This document shows, piece by piece, positions 1-7,170 of a stretch of 7,170 bases of DNA (position 1 is the stretch's first letter; every line of letters begins with the position of its first letter). The notes beneath the pieces were generated by a model. That model saw only the letters and a list, made by a program, of their open reading frames with translations, was not told the origin of the DNA and made no database searches. The stretch is taken from the NCBI GenBank assembly GCA_946480295.1, contig CAMLIT010000164.1:1-7170 (forward strand), in the 5' to 3' direction. A program made the position numbers and the translations under genes. This DNA is from an uncultured Gemmatimonadota bacterium (GTDB taxonomy: Bacteria; Gemmatimonadota; Gemmatimonadetes; Gemmatimonadales; Gemmatimonadaceae).

Positions 1-48
1 GGCGGGCGTGCCGGCCGCGGCGGCCCCGGCGCGCGCGCGGCGAGATGA
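1..48 (+). CDS. C-terminal tail of an upstream gene, probably the RND periplasmic adaptor (partial)
   Basis: The frame starting at base 1 is open for 15 codons and ends at a TGA (46-48) that overlaps the ATG of the next gene (45-47) as ATGA, a classic translational-coupling junction. The visible tail is low complexity, only Gly, Arg, Ala and Pro (GGRAGRGGPGARAAR), so it carries no domain information. In MdtABC/MuxABC-type operons the gene immediately before the tandem RND pair encodes the membrane-fusion (periplasmic adaptor) protein, and such proteins often end in a disordered tail. The identity is therefore inferred from position only. A chance open frame is possible because GC-rich DNA has few stops, but the ATGA overlap favours a real gene end. 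Confidence 0.45.
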   Translation, partial: GGRAGRGGPGARAAR

Positions 49-3000
49 GCTTCACGAGCCTGTTCATCAAGCGCCCGGTCATGACGACGCTGCTCATGAC
101 CGGGATCCTCGTGTTCGGCATCGTCTCCTACCGACAGCTCCCGGTGAGCGACCTGCCGACGGTCGACTACCCGACCATCGGCGTCTACGCGGGCGCGCCC
201 GGGGCGAGCCCCGAGACGATGGCCGCGACGGTCGCCACGCCCTTGGAGAAGGCGTTCTCCGCGATCGCCGGCATCGACGAGATCACCTCGAACTCGAGCC
301 TCGGCTCGACGGGGATCACGCTCCAGTTCTCGCTCGACCGCGACCTGGAGAGCGCGGCGCAGGACGTGAACGCGGCGATCTCCAAGACGATGCCCTTCCT
401 GCCGCCGAACATGCTCCCGCCGTCGGCGCACAAGCACAACCCGTCGTCGGCGCCGATCCTGTTCCTCGCGCTGACATCGAACGTGCTCCCCCTCCCCGAC
501 CTCGACGAGTACGCGGAGACGACGATCGCCCAGCGGCTGTCGATGATCGAGGGCGTGGCGCAGGTCGGCGTGTGGGGCTCGGCGAAGTACGCGGTGCGCG
601 TGCAGCTCGACCCGCGCGAGCTGGCGAGCCGCGGCATCGGCGTGTCGCAGGTGGCGCGGGCGATCCGCGAGAACAACGTGATGCTCCCGACGGGCGTGCT
701 CTACGGCCCGGACAGGACGCTCACGATCCAGGCGACGGGGCAGCTCTCGAACGCCGAGCAGTTCCGGCGGCTGATCATCACGTACCGGAACGGCGCGCCG
801 GTGCGCCTCGGCGACCTCGGCACCGTCGCCGACGACATCCAGAACAACAAGACGGCGAGCTGGTACGGCGGCGAGCGGTCGATCGGCCTCGCCGTGGACC
901 GGCAGCCGGGGACGAACACCGTCGAGATCGCGAAGCGCGTGAAGGCGGAGCTGGCGCAGATCCAGAAGGCGCTGCCGCCGACGGTGACGGTGCACGTCCA
1001 GTACGACCGCTCCCTGTCCATCGAGCAGTCGGTGCACGACGTGAAGGTGTCGCTGCTGATCGCGCTCGCCCTCGTCGTCGGCGTGATCTTCCTCTTCCTG
1101 CGCAACGTCGTGGCGACGGTGATCCCGAGCCTGACGCTGCCGATGTCGATCATCGGCACGTTCTCGGTGATGAACGTGCTCGGGTTCACGATCGACAACC
1201 TGTCGCTGATGGCGCTCACGCTCGCCGTGGGCTTCGTCGTGGACGACGCGATCGTGATGCTCGAGAACATCGTGCGCCACGTGGAGATGGGGAAGACGCC
1301 GATGCAGGCGGCGCTGGACGGCGCCGACGAGGTGGGGTTCACGATCCTGTCGATGACGCTCTCCCTCGCCGCGGTGTTCATCCCGCTGATGTTCATGGGC
1401 GGGATCATCGGGCAGCTGTTCAAGGAGTTCGCGATCACGATCGCCGTGGCGGTGCTCGTCTCCGGCCTCGTCTCGCTGACGCTGACGCCGATGCTGTGCA
1501 GCCGCCTGCTCAAGCCGCACGGGACCGAGCGGCACGGCCGCTGGTTCAACGGCTCCGAGCGCGTCTTCCAGGGGGCGCTCGGCGCGTACGACCGGAGCCT
1601 CGGCTGGATCATGGAGCACCGGCCGGTGATGCTCGGCTTCTCCGCGCTGATCCTCGTCGGGACGGCGGTGCTGTGGACGGTGATCCCGAAGGGGCTCTTC
1701 CCGCCCGACGACACGGGGATGCTCAACGCGACCATCGAGGCGGCGCAGGGGACGTCGTTCCCCGAGATGCTGCGCCTCGAGCAGCTCGCCGAGCGGCGAC
1801 TGGAGCGCGACCCGAACATCGAGTCGTTCACCGCGAACGTCGGCGGCGGCATGGGCTCGAGCAACCAGGGGAACTTCAACCTCACGCTCAAGCCGCGCGA
1901 CCAGCGGCCGAGCGCGGACGACGTGGTGCGCGAGCTGATGCGGCGCATGAACGGCATCCCCGGGCTCGCGTTCTACGTCCAGAACCCGCCGGCGATCCGC
2001 ATCGGCGGCCGTTCGGCGAAGAGCCAGTACCAGTTCACGCTGCGCGGCAGCGACATCGGGACGCTGTACCGCGAGGCCGGGAAGTTCAGCCGCGTGCTGC
2101 AGCAGGATCCGATGTTCGCCGGCGTGACGTCGGACCTGCTGAACACGAGCCCGATCCTGAAGGTCCACATCGACCGGCAGCGGGCGCTCTCGCTCGGCGT
2201 GACGCCGCAGGCGATCGAGCAGGCGCTGGCGAACGCGTACAACCAGCAGCAGATCTCGACGATCTACACGCCGAGCAACGAGTACTGGGTGGTGATGGAG
2301 ACGGTGCCGAGCGCGCAGCGCGACGCGTCGGTGCTCCAGCAGTTCTACGTGCCGGCGAGCGGCGGCCGGCAGATCCCGCTCGCCGACGTCGCCTACTTCG
2401 AGAAGACGACCGGCCCGCTGAGCATTGCCCACTCCGGGCAGCTCCCGTCGGTGACGATGTCGTTCAACCTCGCGCCGAACGTCTCGCTCGGCGAGGCGGT
2501 GGCGCACGTGAAGGACCTCGCGCGGCAGAACCTGCCGGCGACGATCTCGACCGGCTTCTCCGGGCAGGCGCAGGCGTTCGAGGCGTCGCAGAAGGGGCTC
2601 GGGCTCCTGCTGCTGATCACCGTCTTCGTCATCTACATCATTCTCGGCATCCTCTACGAGAGCTTCATGCACCCGGTGACGATCCTCACCGGGCTGCCGT
2701 TCGCGGCGTTCGGCGCGCTCATCGCGCTGTACATCGGCCGCTTCGAGCTGGGGGTGTACGGCTACGTCGGCATCGTGATGCTCATCGGGATCGTGAAGAA
2801 GAACGCGATCATGATGATCGACTTCGCGATCGAGCGGGAGCGGAGCGAGCACGTGTCGCCGGCGCAGGCGATCCGCGAGGCGGCGCGCGTGCGCTTCCGG
2901 CCGATCATGATGACGACCGTGTCGGCGATCGCCGGCACGCTGCCGATCGCGATCGGCTTCGGGGCGAGCGCGGCGTCGCGGCGGCCGCTCGGCATCGCGG

Positions 3001-3170
3001 TGGTCGGCGGGCTCGCCTTCTCGCAGATCGTGACGCTGTACGTCACGCCCGTGTTCTACACCTACATCGACGAGCTGCAGGCCTGGTTCGGGCGGCGGGT
3101 CTCCCGGGTCTCCCGGGCGCCCGGCGCGCTCCTCGCGCCCGGCATCGAATCGGCCCCCGCTGGCGACTGA
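45..3170 (+). CDS. RND multidrug efflux transporter, HAE1 type, MdtB/MdtC-like (first of a tandem pair)
   Basis: This is a full-length inner-membrane RND pump of 1041 aa, the usual size for AcrB/MdtB relatives. It would use the proton gradient to drive drugs or lipophilic compounds through an adaptor and outer-membrane channel. The layout is TM1 at about 11-28, a periplasmic porter/docking half to about 335, TM2-TM6 at about 336-490, TM7 at about 528-547, the second periplasmic half to about 850, and TM8-TM12 at about 851-1010. The proton relay is intact: D400 and D401 in TM4 ([13 protein letters not shown]), K919 in TM10 ([13 protein letters not shown]), and R950 and T957 in TM11 (RFRPIMMTT), matching AcrB D407, D408, K940, R971 and T978. 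The Asp pair argues for drug (HAE1) rather than metal (HME) export. The ATG at 45 overlaps the previous stop, so translation is probably coupled; no strong Shine-Dalgarno is seen. The Arg/Pro-rich tail after about 1015 is poorly conserved. Whether it corresponds to MdtB or MdtC cannot be settled by eye, and the substrate is unknown. Confidence 0.95.
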   Translation: MSFTSLFIKRPVMTTLLMTGILVFGIVSYRQLPVSDLPTVDYPTIGVYAGAPGASPETMAATVATPLEKAFSAIAGIDEITSNSSLGSTGITLQFSLDRDLESAAQDVNAAISKTMPFLPPNMLPPSAHKHNPSSAPILFLALTSNVLPLPDLDEYAETTIAQRLSMIEGVAQVGVWGSAKYAVRVQLDPRELASRGIGVSQVARAIRENNVMLPTGVLYGPDRTLTIQATGQLSNAEQFRRLIITYRNGAPVRLGDLGTVADDIQNNKTASWYGGERSIGLAVDRQPGTNTVEIAKRVKAELAQIQKALPPTVTVHVQYDRSLSIEQSVHDVKVSLLIALALVVGVIFLFLRNVVATVIPSLTLPMSIIGTFSVMNVLGFTIDNLSLMALTLAVGFVVDDAIVMLENIVRHVEMGKTPMQAALDGADEVGFTILSMTLSLAAVFIPLMFMGGIIGQLFKEFAITIAVAVLVSGLVSLTLTPMLCSRLLKPHGTERHGRWFNGSERVFQGALGAYDRSLGWIMEHRPVMLGFSALILVGTAVLWTVIPKGLFPPDDTGMLNATIEAAQGTSFPEMLRLEQLAERRLERDPNIESFTANVGGGMGSSNQGNFNLTLKPRDQRPSADDVVRELMRRMNGIPGLAFYVQNPPAIRIGGRSAKSQYQFTLRGSDIGTLYREAGKFSRVLQQDPMFAGVTSDLLNTSPILKVHIDRQRALSLGVTPQAIEQALANAYNQQQISTIYTPSNEYWVVMETVPSAQRDASVLQQFYVPASGGRQIPLADVAYFEKTTGPLSIAHSGQLPSVTMSFNLAPNVSLGEAVAHVKDLARQNLPATISTGFSGQAQAFEASQKGLGLLLLITVFVIYIILGILYESFMHPVTILTGLPFAAFGALIALYIGRFELGVYGYVGIVMLIGIVKKNAIMMIDFAIERERSEHVSPAQAIREAARVRFRPIMMTTVSAIAGTLPIAIGFGASAASRRPLGIAVVGGLAFSQIVTLYVTPVFYTYIDELQAWFGRRVSRVSRAPGALLAPGIESAPAGD

Positions 3171-3173
3171 TCC

Positions 3174-6100
3174 ATGGATTTCACGACCCTGTTCATCAAG
3201 CGCCCGGTCATGACGACGCTCGTCATGATCGGCATCCTCGTCTTCGGGATCGTCGCCTACCGGCAGCTCCCGGTGAGCGACCTGCCGAACGTCGACTTCC
3301 CGACGATCACCGTCACCGCGACGCTGCCGGGCACGAGCCCGCAGACGATGGCGGCGACGGTGGCGACGCCGCTGGAGAAGGAGTTCTCGACGATCGCCGG
3401 AATCGACAACATGACGTCGACGTCGAGCCTCGGGCAGACGCAGATCGTCGTCCAGTTCGCGCTCGACCGGGACATCGACGCCGCGGCGCAGGACATCCAG
3501 GCGGCGATCGCCCAGACCGTGCGGCAGCTCCCGCAGGGGATCCTGCCGCCGTCGTACCAGAAGACGAACCCCGCCGACGCGCCGATCCTCACGCTCGCGC
3601 TGACGTCGGACGAGGTGCCCCTGTCGACGCTCGACGAGTTCGGGGAGACGACGCTGGCGCAGCGGCTGTCCATGGTCGGCGGCGTGGCGCAGGTGCTGGT
3701 GTACGGCGCGCAGAAGTACGCCGTCCGCGTGCAGCTCGACCCGCAGCAGCTCGCGACGCGCGGCATCGCCCTCGAGGACGTGGCGGCGGCGATCACGAGC
3801 CAGAACGTGAACATGCCGACGGGCGTGCTGTGGGGGCCGAAGACCGCGCTCACCCTCCAGGCGACGGGACAGCTCGACAGCGCCGGCGCGTTCAAGGACG
3901 TGATCGTCGCCTACCGGAACGGCGCACCCGTGCACCTCGACGAGGTGGGGCGCATCACCGACGACGTCCAGAACAACAAGACGGCGAGCTGGTACAACGG
4001 CCAGCGGTCGATCGTGCTCGCCATCCAGCGCCAGCCGGGGACGAACACGGTGGAGGTGGCGAGCAAGGTCAAGGCGGCGCTCGCGCGGCTGCAGACCGAG
4101 ATCCCGCCGTCGGTGCACGTGGCGACGCTCTACGACCGGTCGGCGACGATCCAGGACTCGGTGCACGACGTGACGTTCACCCTCGAGCTGACGCTCGTGC
4201 TCGTCGTCGCCGTGATCTTCCTCTTCCTGCGCAACGTGTCGGCGACGGTCATCCCGAGCCTCGCGCTGCCGATGTCGATCATCGGCACCTTCTCGGTGAT
4301 GTACCTCCTGCACTACAGCCTGGACAACCTGTCGCTGATGGCGCTCACGCTGGCGGTCGGGTTCGTCGTCGACGACGCGATCGTGATGCTGGAGAACATC
4401 GTCCGGCACCTGGAGATGGGGAAGCCGCGGATGCAGGCGGCGATCGACGGCGCATCGGAGGTCGGGTTCACGATCCTGTCGATGACGCTGTCGCTCGCCG
4501 CGGTGTTCATCCCCTTCCTCTTCATGGGCGGGATCATCGGGAAGCTGTTCCACGAGTTCGCGGTGACGATCGGCGTGGCGATCCTCGTCTCCGGCTTCGT
4601 CTCGCTGACGCTGACGCCGATGCTGTCGAGCCGCTTCCTGCGCTCGGAGCACGGGAAGGCGCACGGGCGGTTCTACCAGGCGTCGGAGCGCTTCTACGAC
4701 GCGTGGCTGGGCGTGTACGAGCGCAGCCTCGCGTGGGTGATGCGCCACCGGCCGGCGACGATGGTGTTCTCGGCGGTGATCCTCGTCGCCACCGGGTACC
4801 TGTTCTGGGCGACGCCGAAGGGGCTCTTCCCGACCGACGACACCGGGCAGCTCCTCGCGACGACCGAGGCGGCCGAGGGGGTGTCGTTCGACGCGCTCGT
4901 GCAGCACCAGCAGGAGGTCGCGGCGGTGATCGCGCAGGACCCCGCCGTGCACGCCGTGACGTCGTCGGTCGGCACGACCGCGGCCGCGAACCAGGGGCAG
5001 CTCACGATCGACCTCAAGCCGATCGGCGAGCGGAAGCGCAGCGCCGACCAGGTCGCGCGCGACCTCGGGCGCGCCGTGCAGTCGGTGCCGGACGTGGCGG
5101 TGTTCATCCAGAACCCGCCGGCGATCTCCATCGGCGGTCTGGCGTCGAAGAGCCAGTACCAGTACACCCTCCAGAGCGGCGACCTGCCGAGCCTCGACAA
5201 CTCGGCGCGCGTGCTGGAGAACCGGCTGCGCGAGCTGCCGATCCTGCGCGACGTGACGAGCGACCTGCTGATCGAGAACCCGCAGGTGACGGTGGACATC
5301 AACCGCGAGGCGGCCGGCCAGCTCGGGGTGTCGGCGGCGGAGATCGAGAACACGCTCTACGACGCCTTCGGGCAGCGGCAGGTGTCGACGATCTACACGT
5401 CGAGCAACGAGTACTGGGTGGTGATGGAGCTCCTCCCGCAGTATCAGGCGGACATCCCCTCGCTCGGCAAGCTGTGGGTGCGCTCGTCGCGCGGGCCGCT
5501 CGTGCCGCTGAGCACCGTGGCGACCTTCCGCAACTCGGTGGGCCCGGTGACGGTGAACCACAGCGGGCAGCTCCCGTCAGTGACGATCTCGTTCAACCTC
5601 GCGCGCGGCGTCTCGCTCGGCACGGCGCTGGCCGCGGTGCAGAAGGAGGCGGCGGACGTGCTGCCGCCGACGATCGCGGCGAGCTTCTCGGGGACGGCCG
5701 AGGCGTTCATGAACACGCAGCAGGGGCTGGCGATGCTCATGATCCTCGCCGTGTTCGTGATCTACGTGATCCTCGGCGTGCTGTACGAGAGCTTCATCCA
5801 CCCGATCACGATCCTGTCCGGCCTCCCCTTCGCGGCGTTCGGCGCGCTGGTGACGCTGCTCCTCGTCGGGCTCGACCTCGACATCTACGGCTTCGTCGGG
5901 ATCATCATGCTGATCGGGATCGTGGAGAAGAACGCGATCATGATGATCGACTTCGCGATCGAGGCGCAGCGGGAGGGGCGGAAGACGCCGGCGGAGGCGA
6001 TCCTGGAAGCGGCGAGCGTGCGCTTCCGGCCGATCATGATGACGACGATGGCGGCGCTGATGGGCGCGGTGCCGATCGCCGTGGGCTGGGGCGCGGGGGC

Positions 6101-6299
6101 GTCGACGCGGCGCCCGCTGGGCGTGGCGGTGGTGGGCGGGCTGGCGTTCTCGCAGCTGGTGACACTGTACGTGACGCCGGTGTTCTACACCTATCTGGAC
6201 GAGCTGCAGGCGTGGTTCGGGCGGCGGCGGGCGGGGGTGCGGGACGAGGTGCCGGCGGATGGCGAGGCGCGGGGTGCGGAGCCCGGGCTGCTCGCCTAG
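3174..6299 (+). CDS. RND multidrug efflux transporter, HAE1 type, MdtB/MdtC-like (second of a tandem pair)
   Basis: This is a second complete RND pump of 1041 aa, a close paralogue of the first: the opening 120 residues are about two-thirds identical by eye (both begin with [13 protein letters not shown]). The twelve-TM, two-periplasmic-loop plan is the same, and landmarks fall at the same residue numbers: D400/D401 in TM4, M523 before TM7, K919 in TM10, R950 and T957 in TM11. All proton-relay residues are present. The residue before the TM10 lysine is Glu ([13 protein letters not shown]), whereas the first copy and E. coli MdtB/MdtC have Lys there. The ATG lies 3 bases after the upstream TGA, in the same frame and without a clear Shine-Dalgarno, so its translation probably depends on the first gene. 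The family context suggests that the two proteins form a heterotrimer as in MdtBC. A separate homotrimer is the alternative. The C-terminal 25 residues are divergent, and the stop is TAG. Confidence 0.95.
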
Positions 6300-6310
6300 C
6301 GACGACGGCG

Positions 6311-6336
6311 GAGCCCGTGTCGCGTGACGCGGGCTC
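6311..6336 (+). terminator. GC-rich hairpin ending the efflux operon (probable terminator, no U-tract)
   Basis: An 11-bp stem pairs GAGCCCG (6311-6317) with CGGGCTC (6330-6336), and T-GTC (6318-6321) with GAC-G (6326-6329) through one T-G wobble, closing a GCGT tetraloop (6322-6325). It starts 11 bases after the TAG of the second RND gene, where a terminator is expected. It is followed by GCGGGTTC repeats rather than a run of T, so it is not a textbook intrinsic terminator. It may work as a 3'-end stabiliser or as a U-tract-less terminator of the kind proposed for high-GC bacteria. Confidence 0.55.
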
Positions 6337-6389
6337 GCGGGTTCGCGGGTTCGCGGGTTCGCGGGTTCGCGGGTTCGCGGGTTCGCGGG
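6334..6389. repeat. 8-bp tandem repeat, TTCGCGGG, six perfect copies plus one variant
   Basis: Six uninterrupted copies of TTCGCGGG run from 6342 to 6389. They are preceded by one variant copy, CTCGCGGG (6334-6341), whose first three bases belong to the 3' arm of the hairpin. The period of 8 is not a multiple of 3, so length change would shift any reading frame, and no supported gene crosses it. Such short-unit arrays arise by replication slippage and commonly vary in copy number between strains. The array may have grown outwards from the hairpin arm, since the variant unit is shared. Confidence 0.95.
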
Positions 6390-6453
6390 CGGGTGAGGCG
6401 AGGGGGGATGCCGGCGGCAGCTGGGGCCTCGGGGATCGGCCGCGCAGATTATG

Positions 6454-6482
6454 GCGCACGTGCCACGCAGTGTAGCGTGCGC
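6454..6482. repeat. Inverted repeat in the gene-free spacer 6390-6587
   Basis: GCGCACG (6454-6460) pairs perfectly with CGTGCGC (6476-6482) around a 15-base loop that contains a further short CAC/GTG pairing. It lies in the spacer between the tandem repeat and the first attC-like element. I looked for GTTRRRY/RYYYAAC core boxes placed symmetrically around it, as an attC site would need, and found none. The rest of 6390-6587 is G-rich and shows no gene I can support, only short frames without good start signals. The role of the inverted repeat is unknown and chance is possible at this GC content. Confidence 0.4.
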
Positions 6483-6587
6483 GGGGGCGCCTCTCGCAAC
6501 CGGCAAGGCATTCGACAGCAACGGGTTCGCCGCGGAGGGCGCGGGAAAAGGCTGCGAGTTGGACGCAGGGTTTCGTGCGCGTGCGCA

Positions 6588-6672
6588 GTCTAATATGACG
6601 ATGTTCGCACGCAGGGCTTCCGCGCGGGGTTTGCACGCGGAAACTTCGCGTTCGTCTAAGAACGCGTTAGGT
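6588..6672 (+). other. attC-like integron recombination site, 85 nt (upstream of the cassette)
   Basis: The element is symmetric about position 6630. The outer core boxes are GTCTAAT (6588-6594) and GTTAGGT (6666-6672). The latter fits the attC R' consensus GTTRRRY, and the former is one base off the R'' consensus RYYYAAC; all seven positions can pair if G-T wobbles are allowed. Inside, in exact register, CGCACGC (6606-6612) pairs with GCGTTCG (6648-6654) with one mismatch, and TTCCGCG (6618-6624) pairs perfectly with CGCGGAA (6636-6642) around an 11-base loop. The unpaired segments next to the cores are 11 bases each, longer than the usual 5-6, and R'' is imperfect, so this is a weaker call than the site at 7000-7054. 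Integrase would recombine it as a folded single strand, cutting between 6666 and 6667. Confidence 0.5.
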
Positions 6673-6704
6673 GGATCCAAGTACTCTCGGTAAACGACCG
6701 TTCC

Positions 6705-6709
6705 GAGGA
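6705..6709 (+). promoter_or_regulatory. Ribosome binding site GAGGA that favours the ATG at 6716
   Basis: GAGGA lies 6 bases before the ATG at 6716, which is ideal spacing. The in-frame upstream GTG at 6671 lacks a purine-rich motif (it is preceded by AACGCGTTAG) and sits inside the R' core of the attC-like site. This decides the start of the cassette ORF in favour of 6716. Confidence 0.6.
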
Positions 6710-6715
6710 CATCCG

Positions 6716-6976
6716 ATGCCAAATGGCGGCGTGCCAATGCACATGGTGCTGTTCCCGAAAGACGGGAAGGCTGTCTTGTACTGCAACCGCGGAGAGCTAC
6801 GTGTCATCGAACGGTCGGCGTGGGAAGCGCAGCGCAGCGCGGCAACCCCACTATGCACGTTGAGCGTTGCCGAGGGCGCGGCACTCGCCTGGTTCCTCCG
6901 ATATTGGATCGGCGAAGGCCGTCTTCAGCCAGGATACAACATGCGTGGGGAAGTCCAAGCGGAATTCGACTTTTAG
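6716..6976 (+). CDS. Hypothetical protein, 86 aa, the gene of an integron cassette
   Basis: I do not recognise this protein. From the ATG at 6716, supported by GAGGA 6 bases upstream, it has 86 residues; starting at the in-frame GTG at 6671 would add 15. The N-terminus is short and glycine-containing. A region likely to be beta strands follows (MHMVLFPKDGKAVLYC at 8-23, then GELRVIER at 26-33). A probable helix spans about 50-65 (VAEGAALAWFLRYWIG), rich in aromatic residues, and the acidic, aromatic end is AEFDF. There are two cysteines (23 and 47) and three tryptophans (36, 59, 64). There is no signal peptide, no clear transmembrane segment and no catalytic motif that I can name. It looks like a small soluble alpha/beta protein. 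Its codon use is less GC-extreme than that of the pump genes, and its place between two attC-like sites marks it as a mobile cassette gene. Most such genes have no known function. Confidence 0.65.
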   Translation: MPNGGVPMHMVLFPKDGKAVLYCNRGELRVIERSAWEAQRSAATPLCTLSVAEGAALAWFLRYWIGEGRLQPGYNMRGEVQAEFDF

Positions 6977-6999
6977 GCTGCGAGCAGTCGCGACCATCC

Positions 7000-7054
7000 G
7001 CCTAACGTATCGCTGCAGCTGTCAATCGCTCGGCTGGAAGCATTGCGGTTAAGC
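7000..7054 (+). other. attC integron recombination site, 55 nt
   Basis: The core boxes are GCCTAAC (7000-7006, exactly RYYYAAC) and GTTAAGC (7048-7054, exactly GTTRRRY), pairing at 6 of 7 positions plus one wobble. Spacers of 5 (7007-7011) and 6 bases (7042-7047) follow inward, as in classical attC sites. Next come the inner boxes: GCT (7012-7014) pairs with AGC (7039-7041), then G7015 faces GA (7037-7038) as the asymmetric bulge used for strand choice, then CAGCTG (7016-7021) pairs with CGGCTG (7031-7036) through one wobble, closing a 9-base loop. The GCTGCAGC inner box is a familiar form in environmental cassettes. The element starts 23 bases after the stop of the 86-aa ORF. The predicted cut lies between 7048 and 7049. 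Confidence 0.75.
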
Positions 7055-7138
7055 GCTTGGCCAGGCACTCTGTAGATCGAGTGGTAGCCGCCCTGATAGC
7101 CGGCCGCTTGCAGCCTCTGTGAAGCGGCGCACGCGGTC

Positions 7139-7167
7139 AAGGGTCACATCGTTCCGGTGTGGCCCTT
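7139..7167 (+). terminator. Terminator-like hairpin at the window end
   Basis: AAGGGTCACA (7139-7148) pairs with TGTGGCCCTT (7158-7167) over 10 bp with one T-G wobble and a 9-base loop; the sequence then continues TCT and the window ends. It could be an intrinsic terminator on the plus strand, but the U-tract is cut off or absent. It could also be the inner stem of a further attC whose outer cores lie beyond the edge. The stretch 7055-7138 before it is open in one plus frame and one minus frame but shows no start with a ribosome binding site, so I call no gene there. Confidence 0.35.
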
Positions 7168-7170
7168 TCT

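Follow-up and report, generated by a model that had tools for sequence, protein, structure and literature searches.

The window, the whole stretch of 7,170 nt analysed here, carries two RND permease genes and, behind them on the same strand, a gene cassette with one small ORF and a single attC (Table 1). The sequence-only reading of this DNA had named an RND operon as the left neighbour, and this is borne out by two MdtB/MdtC-like genes, although both products fall under the NCBIfam cut-offs; the top NCBIfam model for gene 1 is RND_permease_2, with a score under the curated cut-off. The product of gene 2 (mdtC) is 88% identical to that of the Gemmatimonadaceae MAG locus L001 in its best segment (residues 1-1010 matched), and its best 29 matches (L001-L029) are all Gemmatimonadota, or members of the phylum by title. 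Thus, we assign the window to Gemmatimonadota; it is most likely a contig of metagenomic origin.

Among the matches listed, DNA homology of the window to its relatives stops at 6235 or before, and the segment 6300-7170 gave matches of just 16-30 nt in 78 relative loci, none of which held an empty, uninterrupted insertion site. A plasmid DNA search with 6300-7170 returned no match. GC content is 73.6% at 6300-6587 and falls to 57.5% at 6588-6667, 59.8% at 6668-7048 and 62.3% at 7049-7170; a drop from about 75% to about 55% had been described earlier, and the step is present but smaller than stated. The hairpin said to end the operon has no T-run, and a promoter and terminator scan of 6280-7170 called neither, so this part of the earlier description is not confirmed. 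The eight Rfam matches in the window (up to E 5) include none at the gathering score and none within 6063-7170.

Several short repeats accompany these features. At 6328-6385, shortly after mdtC, a unit of 8 bp (CGCGGGTT) is repeated in tandem about seven times, and other short tandem repeats were seen by eye behind the same operon in L001, L011 and L017. Two adjacent hairpins (TTCCGCG...CGCGGAA and CGCGTTC...GAACGCG) occupy 6618-6666 next to the crossover point, and an inverted repeat, AAGGGTCACA...TGTGGCCCTT, was seen by eye at the window end (7139-7169), where the terminator scan did not call it.

Table 1. Position of genes, cassette and recombination sites in the window
Feature	Position	Strand	Remarks
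RND permease gene 1 (MdtB/MuxB/MdtC-like)	45..3170	+	Pfam ACR_tran; chromosomal neighbour, outside the cassette
RND permease gene 2 (MdtB/MdtC-like; mdtC)	3174..6299	+	Pfam/NCBIfam; chromosomal neighbour; assigns host to Gemmatimonadota
attI-like left junction	6654..6672	+	L-box-like GTCTAAG, spacer, R box GTTAGGT (6666-6672); not attC
Gene cassette	6667..7048	+	382 bp, between two G^TT crossover points
Cassette ORF, 86 aa	6716..6976	+	Stop 24 bases before R''
attC	7000..7054	+	R'' GCCTAAC, L'' GCTGCAGCT, L' in GGCTGGAAGC, R' GTTAAGC; covariance model
Right flank	7049..7170		Next cassette or chromosome; GC 62.3%; 122 bases

One attC in the window

We built an attC covariance model from 22 sites, trimmed to their arms and aligned. 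Their sources were the surroundings of integron integrases in relatives, the array of Gemmatirosa kalamazoonensis (NZ_CP007129.1) and plasmid Rms149; the window was left out of training. Run over the whole window with filters off, this model (R1) gave 23.5 bits (E 7.5e-5) on the plus strand at the 3' end of the cassette, where the R''/L''/L'/R' architecture is present, compared with 10.9 bits for the same place on the minus strand and 13.6 bits for the next-best place, a partial match in mdtC (5660-5685). With default filters, scores did not exceed 15.4 bits in 487,976 bases of control sequence (32 loci around the mdtBC of relatives) and 12.9 bits in a further 745,210 bases (46 loci), 15.4 bits thus being the top score in 1.23 Mb of control loci together. 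Integron loci scored with default filters gave sites of up to 62 bits, many of which are training sites. On the strand used, the model failed to recover 5 of its own 22 training rows, chiefly long ones (L092 11146, L097, one site of 126 nt in L099 and the two of 130 nt in L103), and L097 gave just a 14.2-bit hit (E 0.69) on the opposite strand. Hence, long sites escape the model, and one or two of its rows may not be genuine.

A hand-made motif scan favoured the minus strand at this site (11.3, against 9.4 on plus). We rejected the reverse orientation because the trained model prefers the plus strand and the match between the cassette ends, described below, agrees with it. R' therefore lies on the right, any array extends rightward past 7170, and 6666 marks the proximal end, the expected place of attI; the proposal that the window shows the distal edge of an array is contradicted by this polarity. 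On neither strand does the linear site (6996-7062) exceed its shuffles in stability, and its bottom strand is ordinary (168 of 500 shuffles as good). Rejoining the two ends of the cassette gives a bottom strand in which R'' and R' pair at 10 of 11 bases and an internal L stem forms. Under RNA parameters this strand folds at -20.1, compared with an average of -15.0 for mononucleotide shuffles, of which 25 in 500 do as well; the rejoined top strand is more stable again (-31.0, equalled by 0 of 500 shuffles).

The sequence-only reading had placed two attC-like sites in the same orientation around the ORF and had proposed a covariance-model search; with our purpose-built model, this search on the window called the right site and not the left. 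The GTCTAAT at 6588-6594, the GTTAGGT at 6666-6672 and the hairpins between them would be in keeping with an array whose second attC, at 6588-6672, is degenerate, as would a bottom strand that folds better than most shuffles (z -2.58, equalled by 2 of 200; for the top strand, z is -1.08 and 26 of 200 do as well). However, the top overlapping model hit is 8.3 bits (6654-6672), the motif scan gave no candidate, and the flank, as judged by eye, has no CAGCTKAAC, the L' sequence found before the next cassette in the arrays of relatives. The bottom-strand fold consists of separate hairpins, in which the R boxes are unpaired with each other. We rejected the left site as an attC, and give hardly any credence to such an array.

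Cassette ends and ORF

The start of the cassette (GTTAGGTGGAT at 6666) agrees at 10 of 11 bases with the reverse complement of the R'' flank, ATCCGCCTAAC (6996-7006), and is the sole match with three or fewer mismatches (here one) among starts 6301-7000. About 0.002 such end matches are expected by chance per 700 bases, as estimated from 8 one-mismatch sites with an intact GTT in 2,466,372 bases (both strands, 78 loci). The Gemmatirosa array, where 33 attC sites make 32 neighbouring pairs, behaves in the same way: in 30 of 32 pairs the first 11 bases of the cassette, read as reverse complement, agree with the 11 bases up to the end of its own R'' with at most two mismatches, the two exceptions being one-base register shifts. 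Compared with the R' that closes the same attC, the cassette starts have 2 to 6 mismatches. At the right end of our cassette, the R' GTTAAGCGCTT has 3 mismatches in 11 bases to the cassette's own end and therefore probably derives from other DNA; the attC model called no site in the right flank (7049-7170). This test of end complementarity allows a cassette to be delimited from a single visible attC.

The small ORF that the earlier reading had placed on the strand of the attC is found between these ends. Its product begins MPNGGVPMHM..., and homologues align from the ATG at 6716, not from the GTG at 6671. The family comprises 136 database proteins (one profile round; 120 listed), and among the matches listed many are on short contigs (a few kb at most) and the nearest, P0001 on a contig of 3662 bp, is 91% identical. 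Two members lie on long contigs (P0056, 5.8 Mb; P0047, 344 kb), so the family also occurs outside fragments. Profile searches, which were run without a positive control and are weak for that reason, found no relatives in 395 Gemmatimonadota genomes and 369 genomes of the Thiobacillus class, nor in further whole-genome searches of 298 and 8 genomes. Pattern scans confirmed none in GTDB species contigs (53 stretches) or viral contigs (17 and 31 stretches), and two plasmid searches with P0056 and P0113 gave no relatives. A family with 136 database proteins and yet no member in the 395 Gemmatimonadota genomes is as expected for a mobile gene. The sequence has no match in Pfam, NCBIfam, PHROG, PADLOC or PDB sequences; its predicted fold (pLDDT 85, pTM 0.72) has three strands followed by two helices and no match in the PDB at E <= 0.001. 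The ORF is presumably expressed, and its product may be a small accessory protein.

The left junction and the integrase

Queries with 40 IntI open frames from the phylum gave short and weak matches only (the best over 37 aa in the tail, E 7e-4, and over 27 aa in the whole window, E 0.006). The earlier observation of a missing integrase thus holds, with no convincing IntI in the 6.6 kb to the left of the cassette; 116 bases are visible to the right of the attC. In the window, mdtC occupies the usual position of intI. Integrases are frequent in the phylum: IntI above the TIGR02249 cut-off is present in 10 of 25 close relatives and in 138 of 395 sampled Gemmatimonadota genomes, and attC model hits occur in at least 11 of the 25 relatives (150 candidates scored per genome). 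In the integrons of relatives, transcription of intI runs toward the array, and intI and attC are on one strand in all eight contigs with a hit of E <= 0.01 beside intI (L092, L093, L096, L098, L099, L100, L101 and L103; weaker hits were not counted); the class 1 control L105 has them on opposed strands.

Two other loci are described here in their own right. Genome G004 has no IntI above the cut-off, yet 14 attC sites are listed on one of its contigs (C27; L157:577-17556), a candidate large integrase-less cluster or split integron. The large Gemmatirosa kalamazoonensis array (L103:19604-36825; 33 attC in the 37 kb examined) lies on a 1.1 Mb replicon, the PLSDB copy of which has no annotation.

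Next to the cassette, the left flank CTAA-N6-GTTAGGT resembles the attI of related integrons, with a spacing of 6 nt where 5 nt is usual. Read off from the start of the first cassette, the attI of relatives has GTCTAATTAGC directly before GTTAGG in L098 and L100 and ATCTAATTAGC before GTTAGG in L101, with variants elsewhere; the junction in the window has GTCTAAGAACGC before GTTAGG. L098, L100 and L101 have a common attI core, TCTAATTAGC followed by GTTAGGC. The motif RYYTAA, picked after the window was seen, stands 5-6 bases before GTTRRRY in 5 of 11 attI sites of relatives and in 1 of 1250 background GTTRRRY sites, and also in the window; YYAA is at that place in 8 of the 11 junctions and in 16 of 1250 background sites. 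When one extra base is allowed, the attI matrix matches 3 of 1250 background sites. The ungapped matrix gives the window no support, as 416 of 1250 background sites score as high. One of the 11 junctions is a poor row (L093, score -0.5), and 14 others were left out of the count (L108, L116, L122, L133, L168, L170, L172, L174, L179, L185, L189, L193, L196 and L198). Of these, L170 and L174 repeat L122 and L133, and L116, L172, L193 and L198 do not look like first junctions by eye; the remainder include CTAA-N5 in L179 and CCAA-N6 in L133, and L108, L122, L168, L185, L189 and L196 have no YYAA there. Because the motif was picked post hoc and several of the left-out junctions lack it, we name 6654-6672 attI-like and not attI. 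The statement that no attI precedes the cassette is nonetheless doubtful in view of this flank, even with its additional base of spacing and the ungapped matrix against it.

We consider it probable that a complete cassette was captured at an attI or attI-like site with no neighbouring integrase, behind an MdtBC-type RND operon of a Gemmatimonadota chromosome. This retains the integron cassette without integrase behind an efflux operon of the earlier reading, with one attC in place of two. The insertion was presumably carried out by an IntI, which would have joined the cassette, via the folded bottom strand of its attC, to a double-stranded attI or attI-like site with the left half ...GTCTAAGAACGCG and the right half TTAAGC...; because no integrase gene adjoins the cassette, the enzyme would have worked in trans, or else the gene for it was lost afterwards. 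Judged by its motifs, the left flank may work as an attI. Against this explanation stand the spacing of 6 nt instead of 5 nt, the ungapped matrix, the post hoc choice of the motif and its absence from several attI candidates of the phylum, a linear attC that is no stabler than its shuffles, the preference of the motif scan for the other strand, and a right flank of just 122 bases.

Capture at an ordinary secondary (attG-type) site, where an integrase elsewhere in the cell inserted the cassette behind mdtC at G^TT and the resemblance to attI is accidental, is a possible though rather unlikely alternative. IntI1 has small sequence needs, GNT extendable to GTTRRRY (PMC10127599), and insertion into genomes via attG sites is on record (PMC12901181); the window has no nearby intI, and the ungapped matrix also suits this explanation. 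However, RYYTAA at 5-6 bases before GTTRRRY is rare in the background, the reconstructed empty site is itself GTTRRRY, and the 78 relative loci yielded no empty site. Among the three options of the sequence-only reading, a cassette at a secondary site is the one that survives, and for an integrase-less attC cluster the window offers one attC and ends 116 bases behind it; an attI-like site without intI, absent from that list, would fit the left flank best.

A more specific suggestion, which we regard as unlikely, is an orphan attI, that is, a stand-alone site behind the efflux operon that has no integrase of its own and would be loaded by one encoded elsewhere, with read-through transcription of the cassette possible. 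If the junction were such a working attI without intI, an integrase-less insertion site could persist and serve in trans. We hold it to be very improbable that this is a normal integron whose integrase is absent through a mis-joined metagenome contig, with the RND operon fused to attI and the first cassette: short tandem (8-bp) repeats at 6328-6385 and the GC step near 6588 are compatible with a join, as are the many contigs of relatives that terminate in or near arrays, but the sequence has no visible break, and the integron loci examined showed no RND permease close to intI, so that nothing favours such a join.

Comparison with known systems

The cassette captured at the attI-like site is most readily compared with the chromosomal-type arrays of Gemmatimonadota (Gemmatirosa kalamazoonensis NZ_CP007129.1, L103), a phylum listed as integron-bearing (PMC8618304). 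They share the attC left arm (GCCTAACGTATCGCTGCAGCTGTC here, GCCTAACGAATCGTTGCAGCTGAC commonly there), the matched cassette ends and an attI-like L/R layout. They differ in that our window has no upstream intI, one visible cassette and an attC of 55 nt, compared with 94-130 nt for the L103 sites used. In integrons, attC recombines as a bottom strand and attI as double-stranded DNA (PMC11023631). PMC8352920 offers taxon-specific attC models for 11 taxa, and its text makes no mention of Gemmatimonad; a literature search, with most subscription papers outside its scope, returned by title no paper on Gemmatimonas integrons.

With a cluster of attC sites lacking an integron integrase (CALIN), the locus shares an attC and a cassette without an adjoining integrase, but only one attC is in the window, which ends 116 bases after it. 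By default, IntegronFinder 2.0 reports CALIN from two attC upwards, and a single attC can be real (PMC9024848); proposed origins of integrase-less attC clusters are off-target insertion, loss of intI and rearrangement (PMC8618304). With cassettes at secondary or attG sites it shares a chromosomal G^TT with no intI beside it, whereas its left flank is attI core-like and not a random G^TT. Treponema-type integrons have intI transcribed toward attI (PMC3607928), as do the integrons of relatives; the window has mdtC in the place of intI. Thus the type of element is already known, and the present cassette is a further example. Cassettes outside complete integrons are one route by which integron genes settle in chromosomes, and this case offers an exact 382-bp unit, an uncharacterised family of 136 proteins and a left junction that is attI-like rather than attC-like.
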